DNA of 64,000 nt from Holdemania sp. Marseille-P2844. GTDB lineage: Bacteria > Bacillota_I > Bacilli_A > Erysipelotrichales > Erysipelotrichaceae. The notes under the pieces are model-generated. The model saw only the letters and a program-made list of their open reading frames with translations. It made no database searches and was not told the origin of the DNA. The position numbers and the translations under genes were made by a program. Location: assembly GCF_900120005.1 (NCBI RefSeq), contig NZ_LT635450.1, positions 122,996 to 186,995 of the forward strand, written 5' to 3'. Numbering within the stretch: the stretch's first letter is position 1; each line of letters begins with the position of its first letter. Positions 52,557 through 58,264 of this stretch are shown here, piece after piece.

Positions 52557-52705
52557 CCGCCGATCCTCCATTTTTAAATAACGTAAATCATTCCCTGCAT
52601 CATTGGTCTTATTCTATCATAAATTCCAGAGCTGCCGGAGGATTCCTGTACAAAAAGCGCTGAGGAGCGGAATTTTCCGTTTCTCAGCGCTTTACTTTCG
52701 CTTAT

Positions 52706-54073
52706 TTATTGCCAGCGCCCGCGCGGATCGTAATCCTGCGGATCCTTGCTTGACGCGTTGACGCATTCTTTTTTGTTTACCTTGTACTCCGGCTTCATTT
52801 CCAGCTCACCGTGAAGGATCGGATCCTGCGTCCGGATCTGGAATGCTCTGAGTTTTTCACGCAGGTCTTCCAGAATTTCCTGATAGCGCGGATCCTGCGC
52901 CAGATTCTTCCGCTCGTCCGGATCGTAGTAACAATCGTACAACGCTTCCGTATCTTTTGTCTGCGTAGCTAAATCGTTGCGCATGTAGAAATCCTTGGAT
53001 GCCGACGAGTCCATATTCGACAGGTTCAGCTTCGTCCAGCTTTCGTCATAGTAGCGGATATATTTATACCGGCGTGTGCGCACACAGCGGATCGGTTCAT
53101 AGCTGGTATGGAAATTCACCTCGGCAAAGATCTCAGAAACCGGCTCCGCGCTGATGTTCTCGAAGACTTCCGCAAACGAGGTGCCTTCCAGATAGTCTGG
53201 TTTTTCCAGCTGAAGCAGATCGCACAGCGTCGGCATCACGTCGACATGCGAAACCAAAGCGTCGATGACCTGACCGTTGGCCTTCGCCCCCGGCACCCGC
53301 ATGATCAGCGATACGCCGATCCCGCTGTCGGTCAGATTGCATTTATTAAACGGCAGCGCTACGCCGTGATCGGTCGTGAACATCACGATTGTCTTCTCCA
53401 TCAGTCCCGTTTCCTTCAGCTTGGCGATGACCTTGCCGAAATTCTGATCCATGTAATAGGCTGAAGTCAGAAACTGCGCCTGATCGTGCCGGGTTTCCCC
53501 ATTGTCGTCGATCGGAAACGGCGGGCGTACATAGCGCTCGTCCACCGCCTCGCAGATCTCAACCGGATAAGGCCGGTGCGTGCTGTGCATGCCATAGCTG
53601 AGGAAAAACGGTTCGTCCGCTTTCGCCTGATCCAGCCACTGACAGACATGATCGGCATTGACGGCGTCCCACAGATGCAGGTCTTCCTTTTTATAAGGAT
53701 CTGCGGAAGCGGTCAGCACCTCATTGTAGCCCAGCTTGCCGGGGGCGTCGGCGTCCAGATACCAGCCAGATTCGTGCTGGATGCCGCACAGGACAGTATG
53801 ATAGCCATGACGCCCCAGAAACTGCGCCAGATGGCGGCGGTAGTCGGTCAGTCCAAACCCCCGCTGAGCCAGACCAAGCATCCCGTTTTGATGCGGATAG
53901 GTCCCTGTCAGCAGCGCCGCGCGGCTGGGCGAACAGGTCGGCCCCGCGCAGTATGCCTGGGTGAACACAGCGGCATCCCGGGCAAACGCCAACAGATTGT
54001 CCGTCGGTGCGTTCACGCCGTAGGGGCTTACCATCCGCCCGCTGTCATGGGTGTGAATATACAGAATATTCAT
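52706..54073 (-). CDS. Cytoplasmic sulfatase, Cys-type
   Basis: A 455-residue type I sulfatase. C47-S-P-S-R51 in GPTCSPSRAALLTG is the formylglycine motif in its cysteine form, matured in anaerobes by a radical-SAM anSME enzyme, which is absent from this window. VMFTTDHGVALPF supplies metal/active-site Asp and His. There is no signal peptide, so it acts inside on an imported sulfate ester. The IQHESGW and MHSTHRPYP blocks resemble the heparan N-sulfoglucosamine sulfohydrolase-like group, but substrate class is inference. It follows the PHP-like gene by 2 nt and is last in the PTS operon. Confidence 0.92.
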   Translation of the reverse strand: MNILYIHTHDSGRMVSPYGVNAPTDNLLAFARDAAVFTQAYCAGPTCSPSRAALLTGTYPHQNGMLGLAQRGFGLTDYRRHLAQFLGRHGYHTVLCGIQHESGWYLDADAPGKLGYNEVLTASADPYKKEDLHLWDAVNADHVCQWLDQAKADEPFFLSYGMHSTHRPYPVEICEAVDERYVRPPFPIDDNGETRHDQAQFLTSAYYMDQNFGKVIAKLKETGLMEKTIVMFTTDHGVALPFNKCNLTDSGIGVSLIMRVPGAKANGQVIDALVSHVDVMPTLCDLLQLEKPDYLEGTSFAEVFENISAEPVSEIFAEVNFHTSYEPIRCVRTRRYKYIRYYDESWTKLNLSNMDSSASKDFYMRNDLATQTKDTEALYDCYYDPDERKNLAQDPRYQEILEDLREKLRAFQIRTQDPILHGELEMKPEYKVNKKECVNASSKDPQDYDPRGRWQ

Positions 54074-54075
54074 GG

Positions 54076-55620
54076 TTATTCCCCTTTCTTTTCAACAAAG
54101 ACCGGGCTTGTCCAGGCGCATCCTCCGTTTCTTTCCCAGATTCGTAAGCGCAGATGCTTGACGTCGCTCAGATCCAGCGTTCTTTCCAGCTGGACATGAT
54201 AGCCGTTTTCCACAACGGCCTGGCCGATTTTGAATTTATACGCGTTATGCCACCACGGATCAGTCCGGTAATAATCTGTGAAGTTAAAGCGATCTTTCAC
54301 CAGCTGACGCGCTTCCTCTTCCAGCTCCACGACCCGCGAGGTCTTTAACAGATCCCCGACTGCCAGCGGATATTCAACGCCGTCGACGCTCAGCAGCACC
54401 GTGCCTTCCCGATCGGTTTCCACTTCAAAGATAAAGCCTTCCGTCGTGACAGCCGACGGTCCCATCCACTTGCCAGTGGCCGTTGTCTTGTACGTTGTCA
54501 GATCAAATTCGCAGCGGTTATCCGTCACGTCGTGCAGATCCTGTCCGAAGTTGCTCCAGCATTTTTCGATGCTGAGGAGTTTTCCACCTGGAACTTCCAG
54601 CGCGCCTTTCCATTGACGCGAAGCGATGTCCGGGAAAATCCGGCGGTCCGGTCCCCAGCCGAATTCCACTTTAAATTTGAAACGGATCGTCTCACCCAGC
54701 GGCTTGCGCTCCCAGGTGGAGGTATGCGGAATCATCTCCACAACCTGATTGTCTTCAATGACTTCAATCCGGTCGATCGCGTCGCTGCCGATCACGTCCA
54801 GCGTCAGTTTCGCTTTCGGATTTGGTTCGATGACATCGCCCATCAGCTTGCCGTCGACCTGCATCCTGACCTGAATCCGATCCTTCGATACGCCGTAGGT
54901 ATGACGCTTCTGCATCGCGTCCCAGATCGCTTCCTTCGTGTTGCCCTCGGCTAAGCAGGCCATGTAGCCAAAGCCATAGACGCAAGGAGCGGAATGGTTG
55001 TCGCCCGAGGCGATGACGCCGAATTTGTAGCCATCTTCCCACCCCCGTTCAACACAGGTTTCGCCCGTCCGCGGTCCCATGTGGACATGGCGCGTCATTT
55101 CAATCGGGCCGTTGTCGTTTTCACTGCTGCCGTGGGAAGAATAGATTTCCACAAACGGCGAGAAGGCTTCGTTATGCGTGGCCCAGTTCTTGCCGCGGTT
55201 TTCCAGCTGATAAGCCAGATGATGCGGAATCCCGATCACGTCCTTACCCGCATAGGCTTGGACCAGATCCGCATAGCGCAGCGGATATTCCATCTTCTGC
55301 CGGTTATCCTTGCAGAAAACATTGTGATCGCCATCCTGTCCGGCGCCCTGCCACTCGTAGCCCATAAACATCGGGAATCCGGCGGCGTTGACTTTCTCCG
55401 TAAACTCGCGCAGTGCTTCCCAGTCTTTTTCAATTACGTCTAATGGATAACGGTCTTCCACGCCCAGCCCCGTTTCATCCTTGCGCATGGTATAAGGATA
55501 ATAGGCGATTGGCCAGAAATCCATCATCTTCTGTACCTGGTCAAACCATTGCGGCAGTTCGTTCATCTGTTCGTGGTGGATGTTGCTGTGCATATCCGTC
55601 CAAAGAATTTTATAATCCAT
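54076..55620 (-). CDS. PHP-like/DUF3604-like metal hydrolase
   Basis: A 514-residue cytoplasmic protein. Metal-binding motifs of a PHP-type barrel are visible: WTDMHSNIHHEQ (D9, H11, H15), GYEWQGAGQDGDHNVF, IGIPHHLAYQ, VEIYSSHGSSEND and IASGDNHSAPCVYGFG. Residues ~260-514 are mostly beta and may bind a carbohydrate or form a lid. I read it as related to DUF3604, whose chemistry is not established. It lies between a PTS and a sulfatase with a 2-nt gap to the latter, so a role in opening or dephosphorylating an imported sulfated sugar is likely. It has GGGAGG before ATG. Confidence 0.7.
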   Translation of the reverse strand: MDYKILWTDMHSNIHHEQMNELPQWFDQVQKMMDFWPIAYYPYTMRKDETGLGVEDRYPLDVIEKDWEALREFTEKVNAAGFPMFMGYEWQGAGQDGDHNVFCKDNRQKMEYPLRYADLVQAYAGKDVIGIPHHLAYQLENRGKNWATHNEAFSPFVEIYSSHGSSENDNGPIEMTRHVHMGPRTGETCVERGWEDGYKFGVIASGDNHSAPCVYGFGYMACLAEGNTKEAIWDAMQKRHTYGVSKDRIQVRMQVDGKLMGDVIEPNPKAKLTLDVIGSDAIDRIEVIEDNQVVEMIPHTSTWERKPLGETIRFKFKVEFGWGPDRRIFPDIASRQWKGALEVPGGKLLSIEKCWSNFGQDLHDVTDNRCEFDLTTYKTTATGKWMGPSAVTTEGFIFEVETDREGTVLLSVDGVEYPLAVGDLLKTSRVVELEEEARQLVKDRFNFTDYYRTDPWWHNAYKFKIGQAVVENGYHVQLERTLDLSDVKHLRLRIWERNGGCAWTSPVFVEKKGE

Positions 55621-55662
55621 ACGTCTATTTCCTCCCTTTATCGTTATTGTTTACACTCATTT

Positions 55663-55724
55663 CTGTTTCATCAGAGAATGAAGATTCATTTTCTGATGAA
55701 ACAGACAGGCGCAATCAGCGCCTG
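55663..55724 (-). repeat. Paired intercistronic hairpins between IID and the PHP-like gene
   Basis: The first is a ~19-bp stem: 13 perfect pairs (55663-55675 with 55692-55704), plus a G-T pair and AATGA/TCATT inside. The second is CAGGCGC (55706-55712) with GCGCCTG (55718-55724). No T run follows, so transcription should pass through. Such structures often mark processing sites or shield upstream mRNA. Confidence 0.8.
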
Positions 55725-55735
55725 ACTGTCGTGAA

Positions 55736-56548
55736 TTACATAATGCCTAACAGAACCATGACGGCAGCCAGACCCAGGATGCCAAGGATCAGCTTGTTGC
55801 TGTTCCAGCCCTTTTTGTCCGCCAGCAGCCAGCAGCCCACGGTGACTAACATCGGGACCAAAGTCGGCATGATCTTGTTCAGGATTTCCTGAATCGAAAC
55901 GGTCATTTCTCCTGCCGTGAAGACAAACTTGATCGGCGCAGCCACGGTCGTCGAAGCGACGCCGCCGATAACGATCAGACCGACCATCGTCAGTGCAGTC
56001 GTGATCTTGTCTTTGATTTCCTTGTTCATCAACAGCTTGACGGCATCCATGCCTAAATCATAGCCCTTCATGAACATGAAGTATTTTAACGGAATGACGG
56101 TACCCAGCCAGGCGATCACAAAAAAGATCGCGCCGATCGGCGAACCGCCGGCAGACAAACCGATCGCGATCGAAAGCAGGATCGGGCTGTAGGTTCCCAT
56201 TAAGATGGAATCGCCGATGCCGGCAAACGGACCCATCAGGGCGTTCTTGGTGCCCATGATCAGTTCCGCGTCGACTTCGCCGCCGTTGGCCCGCGCTTCT
56301 TCCAGAGCGATCGTGATGCCCGGGATGACGCTGCCCAACTGCGGTTCCGTATTGAAGAACTGCATGTGGCGGGTCAGCGCCGCTTCCAGTTCCTCCGGAT
56401 TATCGCCGTATAACTTTTCCAGAGGTTTCGACATCGTATGACAGAAGGCCAAACCCTGCATACGTTCAAAGTTCTGCGCGCAGTGGTGGAAGAACATCCA
56501 AGTCCATGCGGCGTTCTTAACGTCCTTGCGGTCCAGTTTCTTACTCAT
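55736..56548 (-). CDS. PTS mannose-family IID component
   Basis: A 270-residue IID subunit. FFHHCAQNFERMQGLAFCHTM, MQFFNTEPQLGSVIPG and MGPFAGIGDSILMGTYSP are IID motifs. The start MSKKLDRKD has GGAGGAGAT before it and overlaps the IIC end by 8 nt. Membrane segments fill residues ~120-270. It forms the channel with IIC. No IIA/IIB in the operon. Confidence 0.94.
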   Translation of the reverse strand: MSKKLDRKDVKNAAWTWMFFHHCAQNFERMQGLAFCHTMSKPLEKLYGDNPEELEAALTRHMQFFNTEPQLGSVIPGITIALEEARANGGEVDAELIMGTKNALMGPFAGIGDSILMGTYSPILLSIAIGLSAGGSPIGAIFFVIAWLGTVIPLKYFMFMKGYDLGMDAVKLLMNKEIKDKITTALTMVGLIVIGGVASTTVAAPIKFVFTAGEMTVSIQEILNKIMPTLVPMLVTVGCWLLADKKGWNSNKLILGILGLAAVMVLLGIM

Positions 56549-57335
56549 CGTAATCTCCTCCTTCATCAGCGGCAGCCGCGTTGCCGGCGCCGTTATATTT
56601 CGCCATAACGAACAGCAGCGCGACGCCGACGGCCATAATGGTTAACGCGGTAGTCGTCATGCCGGTCGCCTGAGTGATGATCCAGCCCATTAAGAACAGC
56701 ACGATCATCCACTTTTCGGCAACGATCTGCTTCAGCAGCAGCGCGAAGCCCAGCGCCGGAAGCATCTTGCCGGCAACCTGCAAAAACTGTAAGACGATCG
56801 GCGGCAGCGCGTGCAGAATCGCTTCCGCAGCCGGAGCGCCGAAGTAGCAGGCGATCGTTACGACGCTGACGCGTTCAACTAAATGCAGAATTGTGCCGCA
56901 CAGGTTGTTGCGGGCGATTCCCGAAACATTGCCCTGTTCCGCACATTTATCGCCCCGGTGAACCCAATACGAGTTGACCGTCATCGTGAAGTTGTGCATC
57001 GCGGTGCCTAACGCGCCTAACGGAATGGCTAACGCGATCGCTGCTTCCGCGCCGCCGCCCGCAACCATCGCTAACGGAATACCGATGAACGCCGCGTAGT
57101 TCACGTCAGACGGCATTGCGCCGCCCGCGACGATCTGGCCCAGATACATGGCCTGAACCGCCACGCCGCACAATACGCCGGTGGTGACGTCCCCCAGAAT
57201 CAAACCGACGATAGCGCCCGCTACCAACGGTCTGCCGACACAGTAGAATCCGCCAGTCGTACCAAACAGCCATGGTACCTGGTTTCGGCCGAGATAAGCG
57301 AATACGCCTATCAGGAGTGCCTGAATTAAAGACAT
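56541..57335 (-). CDS. PTS mannose-family IIC component
   Basis: A 264-residue IIC subunit (start MSLIQALLIGVFAYLG), with GAIVGLILGDVTTGVLCGVAVQ (split in family as GLILGDVTTG) and QIVAGGAMPSDVNYAAFIGI. About nine hydrophobic segments. It is the first gene of the PTS-PHP-sulfatase operon, with GGGAGGAAAAA before ATG. The promoter lies in the 203-bp divergent gap with the GntR gene. Confidence 0.93.
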   Translation of the reverse strand: MSLIQALLIGVFAYLGRNQVPWLFGTTGGFYCVGRPLVAGAIVGLILGDVTTGVLCGVAVQAMYLGQIVAGGAMPSDVNYAAFIGIPLAMVAGGGAEAAIALAIPLGALGTAMHNFTMTVNSYWVHRGDKCAEQGNVSGIARNNLCGTILHLVERVSVVTIACYFGAPAAEAILHALPPIVLQFLQVAGKMLPALGFALLLKQIVAEKWMIVLFLMGWIITQATGMTTTALTIMAVGVALLFVMAKYNGAGNAAAADEGGDYDE

Positions 57336-57413
57336 AAAGTTTTTCCTCCCTATTTCTCATAAACCCCTCAAGGTTTATCTCCGAGTCCATTGTATTATCA
57401 ATATCATAATTTA

Positions 57414-57442
57414 TCAATACAAATTTTGTAATTTATTGTCAA
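57414..57442 (-). promoter_or_regulatory. Promoter and GntR operator of the sulfatase-PTS operon
   Basis: On the minus strand TTGACA (57437-57442) and TATTGA (57414-57419) have a 17-bp spacer. The palindrome TACAAA-T-TTTGTA (57418-57430) fills the spacer and touches the -10, an ideal repression site. Confidence 0.78.
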
Positions 57443-57461
57443 TTCAAGTCACATTTTCTCA

Positions 57462-57519
57462 ATTTGTATTACTATTAACCCCTTTCTTTCTTGTCATAAT
57501 AATACAAATATGCTATGAT
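57462..57519 (+). promoter_or_regulatory. Promoter of the GntR gene with flanking inverted repeat
   Basis: TTGTCA (57491-57496), 17 bp, TATGAT (57514-57519). ATTTGTATTA (57462-57471) and TAATACAAAT (57500-57509) form a perfect 10-bp inverted repeat that brackets the -35. Both arms share TACAAAT with the operator of the divergent operon, so autoregulation, perhaps by looping, is likely. Confidence 0.72.
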
Positions 57520-57538
57520 TGGCACAGAAGGTGAAACC

Positions 57539-58264
57539 ATGGCAAGCTCAAAGCAAGCGCGGATTCCGCGATATAAACAAATTGAAAATGATCTGATTGA
57601 TAAAATCAACAGCGGCGTATACGTCACGGACGACCTGCTTCCCACCGAGGCTGAGCTGTCCAGGGAATACGGCGTCTCGCGCGTAACCGTCCGTCAGGCC
57701 CTGGGCAATCTGACCACCCGGGGCTACATCTACCGCAATCAGGGCAGCGGCTCGTTCGTCGCCAAGCCCAACGTCATCCAACGCACCCCGCTGATCAAAA
57801 GCTTCAGCGACGATATGCGGGACATGGGAAAAGTGCCGACCTCCATCGTCAATACCTTTTCCGTGACCACCGCCGGCAAGACCGTCGCGCGGATTCTCGG
57901 CATCCGGCCGGAGGATCGGATTTACTACATCGAGCGGACGCGGATGGCCGACGACGTACCGATCATGTTTGAACGTACCTACATGGCCGTCGATCTGCAT
58001 CCCGACATGTCGATTAAAATTCTGGAATCCTCAAAATACGACTATGCCGAAAAAAACGGCTACGACATCGACTGTGACTATCAGAATATCTCGGCGATTT
58101 TCCCGCCCGAATACATTGCGGAAATCCTGCGCTGCGATCCCAAGATGCCGATCATCAAGATCGCAAATACAGTTTATATGAAAAACGGGAAGATTTTCGA
58201 TTTCGACGAATTGTATATGCATCCCGAATTGTACCAGCTGAATATCGTCAAACGCCGGGAATAA
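57539..58264 (+). CDS. GntR/HutC-family regulator of the sulfatase-PTS operon
   Basis: A 241-residue regulator. Winged helix ~10-75 (LLPTEAELSREYGVSRVTVR), UTRA domain ~95-235 (YYIERTRMADDVPIMFERTY). The start MASSKQARI is used; AGAAGG lies before it. It is divergent from the PTS-PHP-sulfatase operon, with TACAAA-type dyads in the shared gap. It should sense a sugar phosphate made by that PTS. Its stop codon lies in the loop of its own terminator. Confidence 0.92.
   Translation: MASSKQARIPRYKQIENDLIDKINSGVYVTDDLLPTEAELSREYGVSRVTVRQALGNLTTRGYIYRNQGSGSFVAKPNVIQRTPLIKSFSDDMRDMGKVPTSIVNTFSVTTAGKTVARILGIRPEDRIYYIERTRMADDVPIMFERTYMAVDLHPDMSIKILESSKYDYAEKNGYDIDCDYQNISAIFPPEYIAEILRCDPKMPIIKIANTVYMKNGKIFDFDELYMHPELYQLNIVKRRE

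Follow-up and report, generated by a model that had tools for sequence, protein, structure and literature searches.

The best-studied sulfatases of gut bacteria are those of Bacteroides, which are exported. A different arrangement is found in a stretch of 64,000 nt (termed here ‘the window’) from Holdemania sp. Marseille-P2844 (assembly GCF_900120005.1, contig NZ_LT635450.1, positions 122,996-186,995), in which an operon on the minus strand encodes the IIC and IID components of a mannose-family phosphotransferase system (PTS), a 514-residue protein with a PHP fold and a cytoplasmic sulfatase, and in which a GntR/UTRA regulator is encoded divergently on the plus strand. If this is a conserved cytoplasmic route in Bacillota, then sulfated host or dietary sugars would also be imported first and desulfated within the cell; a literature search found nothing on a cytoplasmic sulfatase together with a PTS.

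The closest described uptake route is that of streptococci, which import unsaturated sulfated disaccharides of glycosaminoglycans (GAGs) by a mannose-family PTS and process them in the cytoplasm with GH88 (PMC9067506); the Holdemania operon appears to share both features, but lacks GH88 and instead contains the PHP-fold protein and a cytoplasmic sulfatase. The nearest described sulfatases are human sulfamidase (N-sulfoglucosamine sulfohydrolase, SGSH; 4mhx) and the lambda-carrageenan enzymes S1_8A-C (9bb9, 9bbd, 9bba), which have in common with the operon’s enzyme a fold extending over about 406 residues, the CxPSR formylglycine (FGly) motif, an HR motif at the catalytic histidine and an SGSH_C domain, whereas they are lysosomal or exported. 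Known S1_8 enzymes act on a C2 O-sulfate or a 2-N-sulfate (PMC12549532, PMC10154612), and Arg282 distinguishes SGSH from O-sulfatases, which carry lysine (PMC4014121). The PHP-fold protein resembles the DUF3604/PHP superfamily (TM0559, 2anu; BVU_3505, 3e38) in the fold of its PHP domain and in its histidine/aspartate motifs; in the literature searched, DUF3604 appeared in one unrelated paper, and none linked it with a sulfatase.

The cytoplasmic sulfatase and the PHP-fold protein

All five genes belong to the families, and lie at the positions, given in the original prediction, which had been made from the sequence of this stretch. The sulfatase (52,706-54,073, minus strand) matches PF00884 with 153.6 bits and SGSH_C with 69 bits, and its CSPSR motif (residues 47-51, encoded at 53,921-53,935), of which Cys47 and Arg51 are invariant in 37 homologues, together with a predicted fold (AlphaFold2, pLDDT 93.9) that matches many sulfatases with Z above 30, marks it as a Cys-type, type I FGly sulfatase. 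The first active-site motif (THD) begins only 6-11 residues from the N-terminus in all 37 homologues, so that, judged by sequence, no room is left for a signal peptide, as had been predicted for the Holdemania enzyme, and the protein is cytoplasmic. The model is closest in fold to SGSH (Z 42.5, 406 residues, 29% identity; next match Z 37.9), and the top ranks are SGSH, S1_8C and S1_8A; by sequence it is closest to S1_8A of a marine Pseudoalteromonas (9bb9, 211 bits by profile). The nearest relatives by sequence and by fold are therefore members of SulfAtlas family S1_8, and an S1_8-like assignment is supported.

For the 514-residue protein (54,076-55,620, minus strand), the AlphaFold2 model (pLDDT 93.8) contains a PHP domain at about residues 3-248, followed by a beta-sandwich region (250-514) whose fold matches are only middling. 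The PHP domain is matched by 2anu (Z 17.0, rmsd 3.5 over 210 residues) and 3e38 (Z 16.9). Against the DUF3604 model (PF12228) the protein scores 48.2 bits (cut-off 20.4), but it is aligned only at residues 218-254 (model positions 379-415 of 591), and it differs from that superfamily also in its C-terminal region and in basic motifs of its own (RGKNW and HxHMGPR) that are conserved in a 47-row alignment. Invariant in the same alignment are D9xH11, E89, H99, H133/H134, E158, H163 and D207xH209, which are likely to be the metal residues; the barrel fold and these putative metal motifs place the protein within the PHP superfamily. A solved relative was not found by sequence, and metallohydrolases of the CehA/McbA type are absent from the fold matches listed, which excludes nothing. 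In Holdemania filiformis DSM 12042 the PHP gene (96-98% identical to that of the window) is recorded in two frames around residue 464, which is a frameshift or an assembly error; the copy in the window is intact.

Conservation and composition of related loci

A scan of GTDB genomes recovered 54 orthologous PHP loci (37-98% identity) in Bacillota, Fusobacteriota, Synergistota and Actinomycetota, the nearest named relatives being H. filiformis (98%) and H. massiliensis (92%). Genes around them were called as mechanical open reading frames or tblastn hits and labelled by BLAST against seeds, so that only families in the seed set are counted; counts based on draft contigs are minimum figures. The sulfatase lies within 10 kb of the PHP gene at 39 of the 54 loci, several of which stand on short contigs. 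Among 295 genomes of the order, close homologues of the PHP protein are present in 13 and of the sulfatase in 12: 11 genomes have both, two the PHP protein only, one the sulfatase only and 281 neither (Fisher p 3e-17, a raw figure that ignores relatedness and overstates independence). The search for a conserved PHP, sulfatase and PTS neighbourhood, proposed with the original prediction, thus gave a positive answer, with the two proteins together in 11 genomes versus apart in three.

Other genes recurring at the 54 loci encode IIB (27), a second cytoplasmic sulfatase with a CVPSR motif (20), the anaerobic sulfatase-maturing enzyme anSME (12), TauE (12, a label confirmed with PF01925), NanE-like proteins (7) and NagB (3); IIA also recurs, and NagB, GH4, an FGE-like gene and SIS proteins are among the rarer members. 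The uptake system is mostly a mannose-family PTS, and otherwise a glucose-type PTS, a sucrose/trehalose-like PTS or, at nine of the 54 loci, a TctABC transporter (identified by eye from the sequence and not by profile). TctABC transporters do not phosphorylate their cargo. On a quick tree of the PHP protein, which has some long branches, the transporter label requires five changes, as compared to 15 in shuffles. Sequences from Actinomycetota fall among Enterococcus-type ones on this tree, which suggests transfer.

The occurrence of the PHP protein with TctABC, and its retention in two drafts that yielded neither a clear maturase nor such a sulfatase, indicate that the PHP protein is probably the central catabolic enzyme, with the sulfatase in an accessory role, rather than the two forming a strict pair. 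The draft of Vagococcus humatus gave no anSME match and only long sulfatase-fold proteins of the size of lipoteichoic-acid synthase, and in a Tepidanaerobacter metagenome-assembled genome nothing better than a weak radical-SAM match was obtained for the maturase, and none for the sulfatase, although absences from incomplete assemblies could mislead. The same conclusion is drawn from one genome (G093) in which the sulfatase is retained next to a GH4 gene but without the PHP protein, while Halolactibacillus and Maledivibacter have both GH4 and the PHP protein. The original prediction of a sulfated-sugar PTS operon whose PHP protein and sulfatase act together stands as regards a conserved, PTS-linked cytoplasmic module in which these two are associated both physically and phylogenetically; the idea of a fixed pair acting on a phosphorylated sugar is not supported in that form, in view of the nine TctABC loci, the two drafts and G093.

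The operon had also been described as missing IIA, IIB and a sulfatase maturase, which is true of the operon and not of the genome. A near-complete anSME encoded elsewhere (TIGR03942, 335.7 bits, just below the cut-off of 349.45) is 56% identical to the operon-borne anSMEs of relatives, and could provide for anaerobic maturation in the same genome. There are 26 IIB genes, including an orphan that shares 49% identity with the IIB of related operons but has no recognisable IIC or IID nearby. A separate RpiR-IIA-IIB group beside GH88 (L192 6183-9670; C13, at about 24-28 kb), with an IIB 48% identical to the operon type, likewise has no recognisable IIC or IID nearby. From their similarity, these orphan components are candidate partners of the operon’s IIC and IID.

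Proposed substrate and pathway

Taken together, these data suggest that the operon is a regulated one for the catabolism of a sulfated sugar, which is most likely of the glucosamine type or a short alpha-glycoside of such a sugar; we hold this reading with about even confidence. IIC and IID, served by IIA and IIB encoded elsewhere, would import the sulfated sugar with phosphorylation, presumably at C6; after maturation by the anSME encoded elsewhere, the FGly sulfatase would remove the sulfate (from C2, by family precedent) and so open the sulfated form of the sugar as an accessory reaction; and the PHP-fold protein would perform the core step by hydrolysing a second bond of the same molecule. 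In relatives the product may pass into hexosamine-6-phosphate metabolism through NanE-like proteins and NagB, and TauE is a possible exporter of the sulfur anion set free. It is the amino-sugar genes of relatives that make a glucosamine-type sugar the leading candidate class of substrate.

The NanE-like proteins are comparable to NanE, the ManNAc-6-phosphate 2-epimerase (4utu), and the two that were tested score above the NF002231 cut-off; in six of the seven, however, the loop TTLSGYT is replaced by APTxxRF (the catalytic lysine and glutamate positions look kept), and their substrate may therefore differ from that of NanE.

Several observations weigh against this glucosamine reading. The operon in the window itself contains no amino-sugar enzyme, and the link comes solely from relatives (NanE-like at seven and NagB at three of the 54 loci). 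PHP folds support diverse chemistry, and the reaction of the 514-residue protein is unassigned. Finally, the active site of the sulfatase is unusual: the position of SGSH Arg282 is occupied by lysine (Lys244) and that of the metal ligand Asp31 by histidine (His9), each in 37 of 37 homologues, while Lys123 is not kept, its counterpart being Ile98 by K-x-H spacing or else Gln99. Because the sulfamidase-specific arginine is a lysine throughout, despite SGSH being the best fold match, an assignment as sulfamidase is not supported, and the target may be an N- or an O-sulfate.

One alternative, which seems somewhat unlikely, is that the system handles the products of GAG lyases: the PTS, assembled from IIC/IID and the orphan IIA-IIB encoded about 150 kb away, would import unsaturated sulfated uronate-hexosamine disaccharides, from which GH88 would remove the uronate and the sulfatase the sulfate. 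The RpiR-IIA-IIB group beside GH88 in the same genome and the streptococcal precedent speak for it, but inspection by eye of the loci read showed no GH88, Kdu enzyme or polysaccharide lyase in the vicinity of the PHP gene (no profile search was made), the palindrome in front of the operon (AATACAAATTTTGTAAT) does not occur at either the GH88 or the orphan IIB locus, and the PHP protein would be left without a clear job.

Similarly doubtful is a true N-sulfoglucosamine sulfohydrolase, by which imported N-sulfoglucosamine, arriving as its 6-phosphate, would be N-desulfated to glucosamine-6-phosphate and then deaminated by NagB. The clear margin by which human sulfamidase is the best structural match, and the NagB or NanE-like genes of relatives, are in its favour; the lysine that replaces the SGSH-marking Arg282 (PMC4014121) in all 37 homologues is not.

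That same lysine fits an O-sulfatase, and with it a third and quite unlikely possibility, namely that the substrate is a neutral alpha-glucoside with a 2-O-sulfate, for example sulfotrehalose, cut after desulfation by a 6-phospho-alpha-glucosidase. A GH4 protein whose nearest relatives are enzymes of this kind is joined with a sucrose/trehalose-like PTS IIBC and an S1_8-like sulfatase at the Halolactibacillus and Maledivibacter loci, and the GH4 of related loci is nearest to maltose-6'-phosphate glucosidase (1u8x, 399 bits), but the NagB, NanE-like and SIS genes at other loci indicate amino sugars. Both genera, in which GH4, the PHP protein, PTS IIBC and the sulfatase form one cluster (L094 and L096 in Halolactibacillus, L153 in Maledivibacter), are halophiles, and the Halolactibacillus cluster also includes NagB and an FGE-like gene.

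A role of the PHP protein as a mere phosphatase that removes the PTS-added phosphate is very improbable, because, although PHP folds include phosphoesterases and both 2anu and 3e38 are so described, at nine loci the protein occurs with TctABC transporters, which add no phosphate.

A bolder and rather tentative proposal would have the PHP protein cleave an imported amino sugar, sulfated or not, at its glycosidic bond or at another bond that does not involve phosphate. Such a reaction is not known for the PHP superfamily, and the protein would thereby stand in for GH4 or GH88 in a pathway of cytoplasmic desulfation that occurs in four phyla. The operon provides a context, and hence a tractable assay, for an unassigned family of PHP/DUF3604-like enzymes, and, as the conserved PHP partner is found across many Bacillota and also in some further phyla, the gene set points to a testable new step of sugar breakdown.

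Regulation and other features of the locus

The regulator gene (57,515-58,264, plus strand; PF00392 66.6 bits, PF07702 102 bits), whose probable start is the second ATG at 57,539, has a GntR counterpart at 32 of the 54 orthologous PHP loci, and its product is likely a local repressor. Half-sites of the form TTGTATT/AATACAA occur four times in the 180-bp gap between the regulator and IIC genes versus seven times in the rest of the 64 kb (Fisher p ~2e-8), and the near-perfect palindrome at 57,416-57,432, AATACAAATTTTGTAAT, is found nowhere else in the genome and not at all in the reversed control, in agreement with the matching operators originally noted. With half-sites at 57,390, 57,464 and 57,501, the palindrome forms an operator cluster (57,390-57,507) that overlaps promoter-like elements of both genes, and related half-sites lie at the equivalent position in relatives. 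The GntR protein would thus be expected to regulate the operon. A test of whether it also controls the loci of the orphan IIB, GH88 or anSME gave no support for this, and no operator in common was found.

The gene for IIC (56,541-57,335, minus strand) matches PF03609 with 215.8 bits, its nearest NCBIfam model being AgaW with a score below the cut-off, and that for IID (55,736-56,566, minus strand; PF03613, 297.9 bits) probably starts at 56,548, after AGGAGG. Between the IID and PHP genes lies an RNA hairpin (55,662-55,705, minus strand) whose 14-bp stem is perfectly paired; over 120 nt its z-score is -4.8, and none of 200 shuffles was equally stable. It has no T-run, so that its role is perhaps in the processing or the stability of the mRNA and not in termination. 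Three Holdemania retain the stem, while their loops differ. The operon ends at a terminator-like hairpin of 18 pairs (52,654-52,693, listed on the plus strand), and no Rfam family was found in the operon region.

Two distant, very long DUF3604-like proteins contain only S-layer, InlB-like repeat, Fn3-associated and similar domains, which offer no functional hint. A second DUF3604-like protein of the Holdemania genome (761 residues; L048 8156-10441, C17:123993) is encoded in an apparent BMP-lipoprotein/ABC transporter operon; its homologue in a related genome adjoins a GPH-type symporter, and in Tepidanaerobacter a gene similar to this type stands next to one of the 514-residue type.

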